IMG/VR virus record: IMGVR_UViG_3300042402_001143
Location: 1 to 34,276 of that record
Length of the DNA: 34,276 bases
Source: a virus
Reading direction: 5' to 3' (one strand)
The notes under the pieces were generated by a model. It made no database searches and was not told where the DNA came from. It saw only the letters and a list, made by a program, of their open reading frames with translations. Position 1 is the first letter of the stretch. Each line of letters starts with the position of its first letter. This document shows positions 3,152 through 29,907 of this stretch, in pieces. The position numbers and the translations under genes were made by a program.

Positions 3152-3487
3152 ATGGATTTTGAGAGAGAAAAATGGATGGCACTGCAAGACCTGAACCCCT
3201 CAGATGTTGCAGATGCGATATGCGATAGCCAAGCTATCGTTGAAGCAATCCAATCAAACGCATGGGCTGATGTTGCAGACATGGTTCGGTCAAGAGTCGA
3301 ACTCAAAGCAGAACGACTTGCACAAACAGCATTAGAAATTCCATTGACTCGTTGGGTTGATAGTGAAGAAGAACTTAATCTCTGGCGTTTTTATCGCATG
3401 GAATTGCATCGTGAGGCTATTGAACACAACAAGCCTAAATTGCCTAAAATCAACCCTTACACCAGCGAGGCCAGCAATGAAAACTAA
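3152..3487 (+). CDS. Hypothetical protein
   Basis: 111 residues, acidic and helical at the N-terminus (LNPSDVADAICDSQAIVEAI), with no catalytic motif. The leader AACAGGAGTGAATT before the ATG is shared with the winged-helix gene at 5747, so the start is secure. The end overlaps the next gene by 11 bases. Confidence 0.65.
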   Translation: MDFEREKWMALQDLNPSDVADAICDSQAIVEAIQSNAWADVADMVRSRVELKAERLAQTALEIPLTRWVDSEEELNLWRFYRMELHREAIEHNKPKLPKINPYTSEASNEN

Positions 3488-3665
3488 GCTGAATTTAGAG
3501 AGAATCATTGAGGAGCATTCCAATGAGTATTACTGTGCGTTCTGCATTAAACCTCGCAATCCAACAGATCAATGTTGCGATGACTCGGTTTTTATCTTAT
3601 TTTCAGATTTGGACACCTACACTCAGTTTGAAAGAGCGTCAGAGATTGCTCAAAAGGGCGGCTAG
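3477..3665 (+). CDS. Small Cys-rich hypothetical protein
   Basis: 62 residues, MKTKLNLERIIEEHSNEYY then CAFCIKPRNPTDQCC, a four-Cys cluster that could bind zinc. The start at 3477 overlaps the preceding stop; upstream in-frame codons overlap the previous gene and are not used. Function unknown. Confidence 0.55.
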   Translation: MKTKLNLERIIEEHSNEYYCAFCIKPRNPTDQCCDDSVFILFSDLDTYTQFERASEIAQKGG

Positions 3666-3669
3666 GCGA

Positions 3670-3897
3670 GTGAAAGAACAACCTAAGACGCAACGGGTGG
3701 TTATGCCATCCAAACTCATCACCGACCCAACATTCGGGTATGTGAACTCAGCCCTGACAAATGTTCAGGATACATGGAAGAAGCATTCAACAGGAGTAAA
3801 CAATGCTGGATTATTCAACAATCCTAATGCGGATAGAACGAACGACAAAGAGTCTGGAGGACAAGTGCCTACACAAAAAATTCGTAGGGTTCAATAA
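3670..3897 (+). CDS. Hypothetical protein with GTG start, overlapping the next gene
   Basis: 75 residues from a GTG preceded by AGGCGA. The segment QRVVMPSKLITDPTFGYVNS resembles a small phage protein seen in related genomes. The last 32 codons overlap the next gene in another frame, so the C-terminus may be an extension that arose over that gene. The frame stays open upstream to 3508, but that part lies over the previous gene and is not counted. Confidence 0.5.
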   Translation: MKEQPKTQRVVMPSKLITDPTFGYVNSALTNVQDTWKKHSTGVNNAGLFNNPNADRTNDKESGGQVPTQKIRRVQ

Positions 3898-26552: not shown

Positions 26553-27812
26553 TTATATCCCCGAAATTACATCTAGTGGTTGCCACTCATCTTCATCATC
26601 TTGTTCAAAGTATGTGGTGACAGCAAGTTGGTCGATGTATGACAAAGAGTCGGGTAAGTCATCATGTACACCATTGGCAGGGAACATTAAGAGTTGGTCT
26701 TTGAATTCATCCCAATCTTCCTCAGAGTTCAGCACAATGCGCCCATGCTCAAACCGCCCTTGGAGACTCCAGATAATCCTGTCTGTCTTTTTCCTGTTGC
26801 CATGCGTTAAGTCAACTATGTGTGAATATACATTATTTTTCCGCATTAAGTCACTCAAATATGGCAAAACTGCATTTTTTAACGCTCCCCTCTCAATTCC
26901 AACTGCCAAAGGGCGGTATTCCCTCATTTTTAGCAGAATCGTGGCGGCTGTCTCCCTGATGTCCCACCGACCATAAGCAATCTCTTTGACAAACCACTTC
27001 CCATCATCTGTCACCTTGACCACAGAAATAGCAGTCTGATCTAGTCTTTTCTTAGAATTGGCGGCTTGTTTGGCAACTTCCTCAAATCCAGCCAAGTCCA
27101 CAGCAATGTAGTAGCTACCATAGTCAGGTTCTACCCCATACTTCAGCCATTCTTCTTTGAAGACATCCGAGCCAGCGTTGTCAAAGGATGCCATGTACTC
27201 TTGCTTGAAAGCAAAGGTAGAGAGAGTTTTCTTGGCAGATTCAATCTCAGTTGGGTCAATCAGGGGGTTGTCTTTGGTGGTGAAGTGCCAACTTTTCCAG
27301 TCGGGGTCGGTTTCTGATTTTCCGAGTTTAAAAATGTCATAGAAAAAGTTACGACCTTTGGGAGTTCCGATGAACATTGCCCGACCTTTTTTGTCTGACA
27401 GCGAAGCACGAATGACTTGCTCCCATGCTTCTGGTTTGATGTCGGCAACCTCGTCAAGCACAGCGTAGGTGAGTGACACGCCTCGCAAAGTATCTGGTCT
27501 ATCCGCACCTCTAACATAGATTTTTGCTCCGTTTATCAGGGTGATGTCCATGTTATTGATGTGGCTTGACTGAATAACCTCTCTACCCAACTCCATCAAG
27601 ACATCCCAAATAATCTGTCTGGCTTGACCATTGGTAGGTGCAACATACAGCACAGCAGAGCCAGCAGTACATTGGAGTCCTTCAATCAGGAGGGTAACGG
27701 CTGACAGGCGTGACTTACCACATCTTCGACCAGCGGCAATGACTTTAAACCTTGTTTTATCAGCAAAGACTTCTTGTTGCCAAGGGAGGAGACTGAAGTT
27801 CAAATCAGACAT
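26553..27812 (-). CDS. terL: Terminase large subunit
   Basis: 419 residues. Walker A is AAGRRCGKSR (26-35) and Walker B is YAVLDE (116-121), with GTPKGRN after it as motif III. The C-terminal nuclease has YIAVDLAG (near 233), VGIERGALKNAV and DDLPDSLSY (from 384), supplying the acidic triad. It pumps DNA into the prohead and cuts it. ATP-dependent packaging with headful cutting is expected for this family, fitting the permuted ends. The small subunit gene overlaps its start by eight bases. Confidence 0.95.
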   Translation of the reverse strand: MSDLNFSLLPWQQEVFADKTRFKVIAAGRRCGKSRLSAVTLLIEGLQCTAGSAVLYVAPTNGQARQIIWDVLMELGREVIQSSHINNMDITLINGAKIYVRGADRPDTLRGVSLTYAVLDEVADIKPEAWEQVIRASLSDKKGRAMFIGTPKGRNFFYDIFKLGKSETDPDWKSWHFTTKDNPLIDPTEIESAKKTLSTFAFKQEYMASFDNAGSDVFKEEWLKYGVEPDYGSYYIAVDLAGFEEVAKQAANSKKRLDQTAISVVKVTDDGKWFVKEIAYGRWDIRETAATILLKMREYRPLAVGIERGALKNAVLPYLSDLMRKNNVYSHIVDLTHGNRKKTDRIIWSLQGRFEHGRIVLNSEEDWDEFKDQLLMFPANGVHDDLPDSLSYIDQLAVTTYFEQDDEDEWQPLDVISGI

Positions 27813-28197
27813 CTTTGCTTTCTATATCTTCAGCTTCTATAGGGTTTTCACCAATGACTACGCCACCAATTCCTGAGATTGTGATGTTGACAGCGGAGCG
27901 TTGTTTTCCTTCTTTTTCAAACAAGGAGACAGGAAGCATTCTGTCCATACAGAGTTTGAGTGCCGCCATTTGAGCAGGGTGTTCATCATTCATGGCAATC
28001 TCGACTGCCTTGTAGACAACATTAGAACCAGCACTGTTTATCAGGAGTTCTTTGAGTTCTTTGATTTTCTGTTGTTCAGTCTTGGGTAAGACGAGTGCCG
28101 CAGGGTTGTCTGCGTACTTTGATAAGGTCATCTTTCCTGTGCCACGAGGTCTACCCTTTTTCTTCAGGTTATCAGGAAGTGCATCTACAGCGTTCAT
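27805..28197 (-). CDS. terS: Putative terminase small subunit
   Basis: 130 residues. A basic N-terminus (LKKKGRPRGTGKMTLSKYAD) could bind DNA. The helical middle contains NSAGSNVVYKAVEIAMNDEH and AALKLCMDRMLPVSLFEKEG, a pattern seen in small terminases next to this type of large subunit. An acidic tail (EAEDIESKDV) follows. It is the first gene of the late operon. No leftward promoter stands out clearly in front. Confidence 0.7.
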   Translation of the reverse strand: MNAVDALPDNLKKKGRPRGTGKMTLSKYADNPAALVLPKTEQQKIKELKELLINSAGSNVVYKAVEIAMNDEHPAQMAALKLCMDRMLPVSLFEKEGKQRSAVNITISGIGGVVIGENPIEAEDIESKDV

Positions 28198-28231
28198 CTT
28201 TTGTCCAACAGAATGGGAAGTTAGTACGCAC

Positions 28232-28260
28232 TTTACACGAGAATCAGATTCTTGTATAGT
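28232..28260 (+). promoter_or_regulatory. Rightward sigma70-like promoter
   Basis: TTTACA (28232-28237), a 17-base spacer and TATAGT (28255-28260) match the consensus well. Predicted start is near 28267. It faces away from terS and into the structured leader and the gene at 28362. Confidence 0.7.
28240..28252. promoter_or_regulatory. 13-base palindrome in promoter spacer, candidate operator
   Basis: AGAATCAGATTCT is a perfect dyad (six-base arms, one central base) lying exactly between the -35 and -10 boxes. A protein bound there would block the promoter. Repressor identity unknown; the small ribbon-helix-helix-like proteins are candidates. Confidence 0.5.
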
Positions 28261-28266
28261 GGAGGT

Positions 28267-28361
28267 AAGTCTGATTGCGCCAGACTATGAGCCTTTTAGA
28301 AGTGGTACAGCCTCGGGAGTTCTCGGGGGCGCAACTGTGCCACCCCTAAAGGGCTTTTTTT
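28267..28361 (+). ncRNA. Structured leader/attenuator ending in a terminator-like hairpin
   Basis: Predicted transcript from the promoter at 28232. Hairpin 1: AGTCTG (28268-28273) with CAGACT (28281-28286). Long hairpin: AGCCTTTTAG (28290-28299) with CTAAAGGGCT (28346-28355), stacked on GTGGTACAG (28302-28310) with CTGTGCCAC (28335-28343), each with one GU pair. Seven T residues follow (28355-28361), then the ATG of the next gene. The AAAGGG ribosome site lies in the closing stem. This could be an attenuator, a translation switch or a short sRNA. Confidence 0.6.
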
Positions 28362-28586
28362 ATGGCAATTCAACTAACACCTGAAGAACTGGCAAAACAG
28401 CGTCAGCGCAAAGAAATAGCGCAAGCACTGGAATCTTGGGGAAAAGGTTTGGCAGAGAAGTTGGCAAAAGACAGGATAGACAAGAGAAAAGTCACAAATC
28501 CCAAGAAGATTAAGGTCTACGAAAAAGGCGCAAAACAAGAAGCAAGAAAGATTCTCAAAGCATTTGATGATGGGATGATTTTCTAG
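28362..28586 (+). CDS. Small basic helical protein
   Basis: 74 residues, very rich in Lys, Glu and Ala: MAIQLTPEELAKQRQRKEIA, then KRKVTNPKKIKVYEKGAKQE. No named family. The only plausible ribosome site (AAAGGG, eight bases upstream) is inside the terminator-like stem described above. Expression therefore seems to be controlled by the leader. Its last codons contain the -35 element of the following promoter. Confidence 0.65.
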   Translation: MAIQLTPEELAKQRQRKEIAQALESWGKGLAEKLAKDRIDKRKVTNPKKIKVYEKGAKQEARKILKAFDDGMIF

Positions 28587-28592
28587 TATAGT
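28564..28592 (+). promoter_or_regulatory. Second rightward promoter candidate
   Basis: TTGATG (28564-28569), 17 bases, TATAGT (28587-28592). The -10 box and spacing are identical to the promoter at 28232. Predicted start is near 28599, at the edge of the multi-helix segment that follows. Confidence 0.55.
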
Positions 28593-28602
28593 GTCAACAA
28601 AA

Positions 28603-28755
28603 GGAGTGTCGGTTTTGCTACCCGACTCGACAGAGGGCAATCCTGTAAACCCCTGTTATGACCGCTTGGAAGCTGGTATGCCATCGTAGTGACTACGCCG
28701 CACAAGATAAACCAGAATAAGCCTAGAAGTAGGCTCTCCTAGTGGCAGACACTCT
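28603..28755 (+). ncRNA. Candidate structured RNA
   Basis: The ends pair (GGAGTGTC 28603-28610 with GACACTCT 28748-28755, including a GU). Inside are local hairpins: CAG(A)GGG 28631-28637 with CCCCTG 28650-28655; ACCGCT 28661-28666 with AGC(T)GGT 28671-28677; CGTA 28685-28688 with TACG 28694-28697; AGCCTA 28720-28725 with TAGGCT 28730-28735 around GAAG. It has no good open frame and is preceded by a promoter. It is not a tRNA. No terminator is evident behind it. Function unknown. Confidence 0.45.
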
Positions 28756-28967
28756 AATCAGCTTTCTGTTAAACATTATTTTACCTATACAAGCTATCGG
28801 GTAGCCGCCTTGCGCCCAAATGAAACTTAAAGACACACCTCACTGATTACCCCTTTTTTCCAATTCAACCTTGCTTATTTTGTTGGACAGCATGATTTAG
28901 CTTCTCGTGTGCGGAGGAGGGTTCACAAATATTTACAACACCACACCTACCCCCTCCCCCCCCATGA

Positions 28968-29048
28968 AGTAAGTACACACTTACAAGTAAGCGCACACTA
29001 ACCTACCCAGTAAGCACTTACTAACATAATGGTTAGTAAGCACTAACA
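28968..29048. repeat. Iteron-like tandem repeats
   Basis: Four degenerate copies of about 17-20 bases built on AGTAAGCNCAC and CTAAC follow one another: AAGTAAGTACACACTTAC, AAGTAAGCGCACACTAAC, CAGTAAGCACTTACTAAC and TTAGTAAGCACTAACATA. A related fragment occurs at 31671. Spacing and strand are regular enough for protein-binding iterons. Confidence 0.5.
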
Positions 29049-29325
29049 TATGTGTTGGATTATTTCCACAAAGCAAGTGCTTGGTTGGTAGATAGGGGCG
29101 ATGTACCATAATGCGAACACTAATGAGAATCATTCGCATATGCACAAACACAATTAAATGCAAACTATTGATAACAGATTATCGATAGGTTATTTATATG
29201 GTGCAAAGTGGTGCAGAGTGTTCACTAACATCACCTAATCAGTGCATGATTTTATGATGTGAAATGCAATGCACCAAGTTGGATTTTCCACAATACGAAA
29301 TTCCTTATAAATCAATAGGTTAGTA

Positions 29326-29379
29326 GTGTCTGACACTTGGCATGGTGTTTGCATAGTATTTATTGTCCGATGTTGGACA
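29326..29379 (+). promoter_or_regulatory. Promoter/operator candidate for the right accessory genes
   Basis: CTGACA (29330-29335), 18 bases, TAGTAT (29354-29359) is a plausible promoter. The palindrome AGTGTCTGACACT overlaps its -35 box, and a second dyad TGTCC-N6-GGACA (29364-29379) lies at the expected start. The gene at 29401 follows directly. Confidence 0.4.
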
Positions 29380-29400
29380 GCAAACTAAACAGGTGTGAAT

Positions 29401-29577
29401 ATGAAACAGTTTCCAACTTATGAATCAATCCCCAGTAACGCTATTTATCTGGGCAGTGAAAGTGGCGATGGTTCGATGGGTGAAACCCTTGCAGACATGA
29501 TTCTAGAGGCTATAAACCCCGCTACATTTAAAGACAGTGACGGAATACGCCACTACTTTGACCTGATAACAGACTGA
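29401..29577 (+). CDS. Hypothetical small protein
   Basis: 58 residues: MKQFPTYESIPSNAIYLGSE, an acidic middle and YFDLITD at the end. ATG at 29401 follows AACAGGTGTGAAT, the leader type used elsewhere in this cluster. First gene of the right accessory operon. No family recognised. Its stop codon is part of the hairpin module that follows. Confidence 0.6.
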   Translation: MKQFPTYESIPSNAIYLGSESGDGSMGETLADMILEAINPATFKDSDGIRHYFDLITD

Positions 29578-29619
29578 CAGTCCAGCGATAAGCCCTTCGG
29601 GGTTTATCAGTGCACTGTC
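29576..29619 (+). other. Intercistronic UUCG hairpin module A
   Basis: GACAGT (29576-29581) pairs with ACTGTC (29614-29619), enclosing GATAAGCCC (29587-29595), the loop TTCG and GGGTTTATC (29600-29608). There is no T run, so it is not a classical terminator. The element begins in the stop codon and ends about 24 bases before the next ATG. Confidence 0.7.
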
Positions 29620-29643
29620 GCACTACTTCAAAAGGCGTGAATC

Positions 29644-29907
29644 ATGACTGAAATTGATACAGTAATAGCCACAATAGAGTTTCGACTGCATGAGAATGCA
29701 GATGGTACTTGCTTCATTCTCAATGGTGACAATGAAATCATGTTTACAAGCTCAGATTATTCTCTGGCTTTGCATACCCTTGAAACCGAATACCTGACTG
29801 CTAATCAGGTTGAAGCCCTGAAACTTCACTATGAAGTCATGACTGAAATTGAGAATGAAAACAGGGCTAACCGCTCATTGTCATGCGACCATTATTCAGG
29901 TTATTGA
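29644..29907 (+). CDS. Hypothetical small acidic protein
   Basis: 87 residues, beginning MTEIDTVIATIEFRLHENAD, helical and acidic, with EIENENRANRSLSCDHYSGY at the end. The leader AAAAGGCGTGAATC before the ATG is shared with other genes of the cluster. Flanked on both sides by near-identical hairpin modules. Function unknown. Confidence 0.6.
   Translation: MTEIDTVIATIEFRLHENADGTCFILNGDNEIMFTSSDYSLALHTLETEYLTANQVEALKLHYEVMTEIENENRANRSLSCDHYSGY

Follow-up and report, generated by a model that had tools for sequence, protein, structure and literature searches.

Comparison among related phage loci indicates that a segment beside the terminase genes of IMG/VR virus record IMGVR_UViG_3300042402_001143, analysed here in its full length of 34,276 bases (the window), encodes a real structured non-coding phage RNA, rna2, that is larger than first noted. 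Judged by the searches described below, rna2 represents a family without precedent in Rfam 15 or the collections searched, and we take it to be, with some probability, an accessory RNA open to exchange rather than a part of the terminase or a leader. The RNA (28599–28828, + strand; about 230 nt) lies in the gap between the divergent terS ORF and later + strand ORFs; its 5' end is placed from a promoter-like site, P2, and its 3' end is a minimum. It is the last element of a unit that consists, in order, of a promoter-like site P1, a leader RNA (rna1), a 74-codon ORF, P2 and rna2, and the same order recurs in rna2 loci that retain enough upstream sequence. The large terminase subunit, TerL (26553–27812, − strand), belongs to family phrog_2 and has at least 598 relatives in IMG/VR, the best 80 of which were retained. 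Its relatives in cultured phages are distant only, all below 60% identity, with the best rows at about 25–33%. The adjoining ORF (27805–28197, − strand) is named terS from its position, and a family search with it gave no match.

The two promoter-like sites share an identical −10 box, TATAGT, as the original prediction had stated for the site preceding the segment. P1 (TTTACA-17-TATAGT, 28232–28260, + strand) is the stronger and persists in relatives with a different RNA type, and P2 (TTGATG-17-TATAGT, 28564–28592, + strand) has its −10 box directly 3' of the stop codon of the 74-codon ORF. The best-scoring site upstream of rna2 has hexamers with a 17-base spacer and 9–10 of 12 matches in all 51 rna2 loci scored, some of which share one contig; a score of at least 9 also arises in 238 of 2000 mononucleotide shuffles and is not rare for a single sequence. 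Between promoter and rna2 the distance varies by no more than 2 bases in three lineages, and the L103/L238 group has a spacing that exceeds it by about 18 bases.

Patterns derived from four parts of rna2 match 37–45 IMG/VR stretches each, on nearly the same contigs, and rna2 is therefore conserved as one piece up to ATGAAACTT (28828); it is kept end to end in 45–47 IMG/VR contigs, always at the site opposite terS. The non-coding RNA of about 150 bases originally predicted was thus correctly recognized as structured and non-coding, with a 3' end at 28755 that was placed too early, as conservation and structure reach at least 28828. Between the window and one relative, L031, identity is 93.8% in rna2, 73.8% in the adjacent ORF and 79.3% downstream. 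A coding function was rejected, since no frame is open across the homologs and the length of rna2 varies by about 30 bases between lineages, as was an antisense role against the phage's own mRNAs, to which only two isolated 12-base matches exist within the window. At its end, rna2 carries an invariant ATGAAACTT with which a short frame begins (28820–28846, + strand; MKLKDTPH in the window); this frame varies in length from lineage to lineage, and no ribosome-binding site was seen for it at 28820. The sequence 3' of rna2 is C-rich and G-poor, and no intrinsic terminator was found on the + strand between 28830 and 29000.

The structure of rna2 comprises 59 pairs, which are 95.1% paired over 28 distinct sequences. 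Double changes were observed at 14 pairs in 63 cells (the sequences come from few lineages, and the cells are therefore not independent events). Sliding the partners left no more than 4 such pairs and 24 such cells, and shuffled controls averaged 9.5 pairs and 24.9 cells, with none of 500 reaching the observed values. Of five measures, one (the count of further pair types) does not set rna2 above the shuffles. The double changes are located in helices H1, H3, H4, H5, both parts of H6, and H9, so that most of the predicted helices withstand the covariation check in relatives. The outer helix H1 joins the ends already noted as pairing, GAGTGTC (28604–28610) and GACACTC (28748–28754; this and all other rna2 helices are on the + strand), with 98.9% of cells paired and two pairs doubly changed; in L105 it reads GGATGTC/GACATCC. 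The closing pair of hairpin H3 (28629–28637 with 28650–28657) is AU, GU, CG or GC across lineages. H4 (28662–28670 with 28737–28745), which encloses H5–H7, has four doubly changed pairs and 86.9% of cells paired, three of its positions being mispaired in 10–12 sequences. Within it, H5 (28673–28676/28712–28715) contains H6 (28678–28681/28700–28703 and 28685–28689/28693–28697); in the L103 group an inserted base causes the alignment to misread H5, and H6 is missing from the shorter lineages. The internal hairpins of the original prediction are present, including H7 (28720–28735), which has a GAAG loop on six pairs and is invariant in the 28 sequences. Next to the 3' strand of H2, the three-pair hairpin H9 (28806–28814) appears as CGC/GCG, CAC/GTG, CGT/GCG or CGT/ACG according to lineage.

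H2 itself, nine pairs between 28617–28625 and 28797–28805, is invariant in 28 of 28 sequences and crosses H1, and the two would form a pseudoknot if both are made. We consider this pseudoknot probable, with covariation as the basis for H1 and, for H2, nine invariant complementary pairs, which covariation cannot test. An alternative hairpin, 28608–28612/28622–28626, is disfavoured as it excludes the covarying H1 and is broken in L093. The folding energy is weakly low, with z-scores of −1.85 for 28595–28765 (7 of 200 shuffles are as low) and −1.69 for 28599–28828, and the case for rna2 therefore rests on comparison.

The leader RNA rna1 (28261–28361, + strand) is pseudoknotted as well. Over a set of 30 distinct sequences, 99.4% of its cells are paired and 12 pairs are doubly changed. 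It is composed of a hairpin (28268–28273/28281–28286), a long stem (28290–28355) and a pseudoknot (28275–28280/28329–28334) that pairs the hairpin loop with a bulge, five of its six pairs changing on both sides and none ever being broken. The strand preference that can be read from G-U pairs is clear for rna1 and weak for rna2 (95.1% vs 92.5%). A T-run at the end of rna1 leads up to the ATG of the 74-aa gene or, in some relatives, of an HNH endonuclease gene, and AAAGGG, the likely ribosome-binding site, lies within the 3' arm of the long stem. With a gene directly downstream and a putative ribosome-binding site inside the structure, rna1 has the attributes of a cis-regulatory leader and, by analogy, would repress the downstream ORF, its hairpin covering AAAGGG and keeping expression of the 74-aa protein down. 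A precedent is the mobE hairpin of T4-like phages, an RNA structure that covers the ribosome-binding site where an intergenic cassette carries an HNH gene (PMC2988022); rna1 differs from it in being pseudoknotted, in having a T-run and in mostly preceding the 74-aa gene. That ORF (28362–28586, + strand) encodes a basic protein and accompanies rna2 wherever the upstream sequence is available. All 27 distinct homologs are 74 aa long, and the gene is under purifying selection, with dN far below dS in comparison with near relatives (L031: dN 0.18, dS 1.74). No family match above the curated cut-off was obtained for the protein, which is modelled with moderate confidence (pLDDT 76.6) as a two-helix structure.

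The region from 28261 to about 28900 behaves as an exchange segment, with an approximate right edge, that is replaced as a block in relatives carrying other RNA types. Among relatives with 97–98% identical terminase, it is swapped for an RNA of type A, for one of type B, or for RNA C2 together with an HNH gene. Homology to the window ends at 28260–28264, at the −10 box of P1, in types A and B and at 28370, just past the ATG, in the HNH types, and it resumes at 28874–28926. The neighbourhood could be read for 121 distinct TerL sequences, and in these the slot holds type A in 81, rna2 in 24, type B in 6, HNH with C2 in 4 and no RNA in 6 (one, L064, was judged from 1,300 bases only). Where TerL is at least 97% identical to that of the window, all of these RNAs are represented, with 4 A, 3 B, 3 C2 and 2 rna2. 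On the TerL tree the fewest RNA-type changes number 29, compared with 36–39 in the five shuffled labelings listed. The six relatives that have no RNA at the slot site are more distant, three of them (L061, L067 and L069) with TerL 88–90% identical. It is on this pattern of four RNA types at TerL identities of at least 97%, sharp exchange edges and six relatives devoid of an RNA that the probable accessory nature of the module is based.

Type A, the commonest occupant, is found at L018 3843–4052 (− strand) and about 140 other loci, in at least 120 IMG/VR stretches; it covaries, with double changes at 12 pairs, and has no match in Rfam. A covariance model of rna2 finds no type A, B or C2, and one of type A finds no rna2, B or C2. 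In both rna2 and type A, a hairpin and a multibranch come after a long-range ACCC/GGGT helix, and the two may thus be remotely related. The type B occupant (L003, about 1550–2080, − strand) is an apparently structured, non-coding segment of about 450 bases, and RNA C2 (L006, about 3350–3720, − strand) starts where the HNH gene ends, at its stop codon. In type A and type B slots there is no ORF between promoter and RNA. Upstream of terS, some relatives have tRNA-like genes of about 108 bases (L003 2352–2459 and L006 4480–4587, both + strand, and a similar one in L078); these genes score 44 bits in Rfam, yet ARAGORN rejects those of L003 and L006, and an insert or an atypical arm may be present in them. 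Beyond the slot, a conserved intergenic region with short repeats (28880–29395) is common to all RNA types. An element that is first G-rich and then C-rich (28900–29047; GGAGGAGGG ... CCCCCTCCCCCCCC) comes after the slot whichever RNA type is present, as well as in RNA-less relatives, and is possibly origin-related. The next listed + strand ORF begins only at 29395, over 560 bases past rna2, so that rna2 is not a near leader; a cis-regulatory leader or riboswitch was rejected for want of a same-strand gene directly downstream.

The original prediction recognized no RNA family in the segment and excluded a tRNA, and the searches agree on both counts. At the gathering score Rfam 15 has no match in the window, nor in eight relatives except for tRNA-like hits elsewhere, and a search at E up to 5 returned a single chance match (E 4.4); ARAGORN reports neither a tRNA nor a tmRNA in rna2. 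Neither the rna2 nor the type A patterns have an exact match in 84,980 bacterial and archaeal genomes, a distant blastn of 27500–29800 against cultured phages revealed no similarity, and no description of rna2 or of its exchange slot was found in the open-licence literature. As a kind, rna2 joins the structured phage RNAs of unknown function. Among these are GOLLD and ROOL, structured and pseudoknotted RNAs of phages and prophages (PMC12286853), which rna2 resembles as a structured, probably pseudoknotted phage RNA; they measure roughly 600–800 nt and more and are located near tRNA islands, whereas rna2, at about 230 nt and lacking an Rfam match, is encoded opposite terS with a linked 74-aa gene. 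The C2 variant, in which a putatively structured RNA adjoins an HNH gene, recalls HEARO and IsrB-IscB. However, only HNH was matched in its protein of 151 aa, whereas RuvC-HNH is the criterion for such systems; rna2 adjoins the 74-aa gene instead, and the HEARO model matches neither rna2 nor C2 even at E 5. In type III toxin-antitoxin loci, a promoter and a pseudoknotted RNA are followed by a terminator-like hairpin and then an ORF. P1, rna1 and the 74-aa gene follow this layout; but rna1 is a single copy without the repeated antitoxin units, the ORF has no match to ToxN or another toxin family, and rna2 has no counterpart there, and a ToxIN-type system was rejected.

Of the functions that can be envisaged for rna2, we give about even weight to that of a trans-acting accessory RNA, a regulator or an anti-host effector, perhaps together with the 74-aa protein; both roles had also been raised as possible in the original prediction. 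Transcription would start at P2, with possible additional read-through from P1, and rna2 would fold into a multibranched, pseudoknotted form and then act in trans on a target, probably in partnership with the basic 74-aa protein of its unit, while the unit as a whole would constitute a cassette in a fixed slot behind P1, exchanged for other structured RNAs. This model is consistent with the structure and conservation of rna2, its linkage to the 74-aa gene, the exchange and the absence of an RNA in some relatives. Against it count the type A and B slots without an ORF, by which a protein partner is not general, the position beside an intergenic region that may hold an origin, by which a role in cis is possible, and an exchange pattern that would also fit a homing element.

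Homing is the strongest of the alternatives, although we regard it as unlikely. The free-standing HNH endonuclease of the C2 type would drive replacement during mixed infection and be silenced by rna1, the RNAs would be passengers or parts of the element, and the 74-aa gene would be a nuclease-less occupant. The HNH gene stands behind the same rna1 in L006, L008, L012 and L065, exchange occurs as a block at one site, and both intronless homing and the mobE ribosome-binding-site hairpin provide precedents (PMC2988022). On the other hand, the type A, type B and rna2 slots have no nuclease gene, no copy was found at another site, and rna2 is more conserved than the neighbouring protein gene, which suggests a role of its own. 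That rna2 serves replication in cis, for instance as a structured precursor of a primer or by forming an R-loop, appears less probable still. rna2 is directed towards the repeat-bearing intergenic region shared by all RNA types, but the same region occurs without a preceding RNA in six relatives, RNAs without detectable kinship replace one another in front of it, and an origin near the slot is only putative. Proximity to the terminase genes had originally suggested a packaging role, in which rna2 would cooperate with the terminase as phi29 pRNA does, likewise a phage RNA encoded near packaging genes. This suggestion is weakened and now seems very improbable: L061, L067 and L069 lack any RNA at the site, unrelated RNAs of every type accompany nearly identical TerL proteins, phrog_2 gives no hint of an RNA-dependent motor, and membership among pRNA-like molecules was rejected since the RNA is missing at the slot site in six relatives and replaced there in most. 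That the segment is no functional RNA at all, being a DNA element or a chance fold, is scarcely credible in spite of its weakly low folding energy, its weak G-U strand preference and the invariance of H2 and H7, which places them outside the covariation test, because separate lineages show double changes in H1, H3, H4, H5, H6 and H9, neither sliding nor shuffling yields anything near the observed double-change cells or covariation score, and covariation rules out chance folding.

The original prediction is thereby upheld in part: it did not recognize how far the RNA extends, that it is probably pseudoknotted, that a leader RNA and a 74-aa gene are linked to it, or that RNA types are exchanged at the site. 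More tentatively than the trans-acting role, we propose that this is a dedicated slot whose one conserved promoter serves at least four unrelated structured RNAs, exchanged for one another as alternative effectors, with rna2 and the 74-aa protein forming one RNA-protein effector. Anti-defence islands swap protein genes; the proposed slot would swap RNAs likewise. To the few structured phage RNAs, rna2 adds a family whose structure can be tested and for which there is a candidate protein partner. The site is the more unusual feature: its promoter and its downstream boundary stay fixed, and the neighbouring terminase is nearly the same throughout, while one RNA type takes the place of another. 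Should these RNAs act upon the host, the slot would offer a ready catalogue of RNA effectors.
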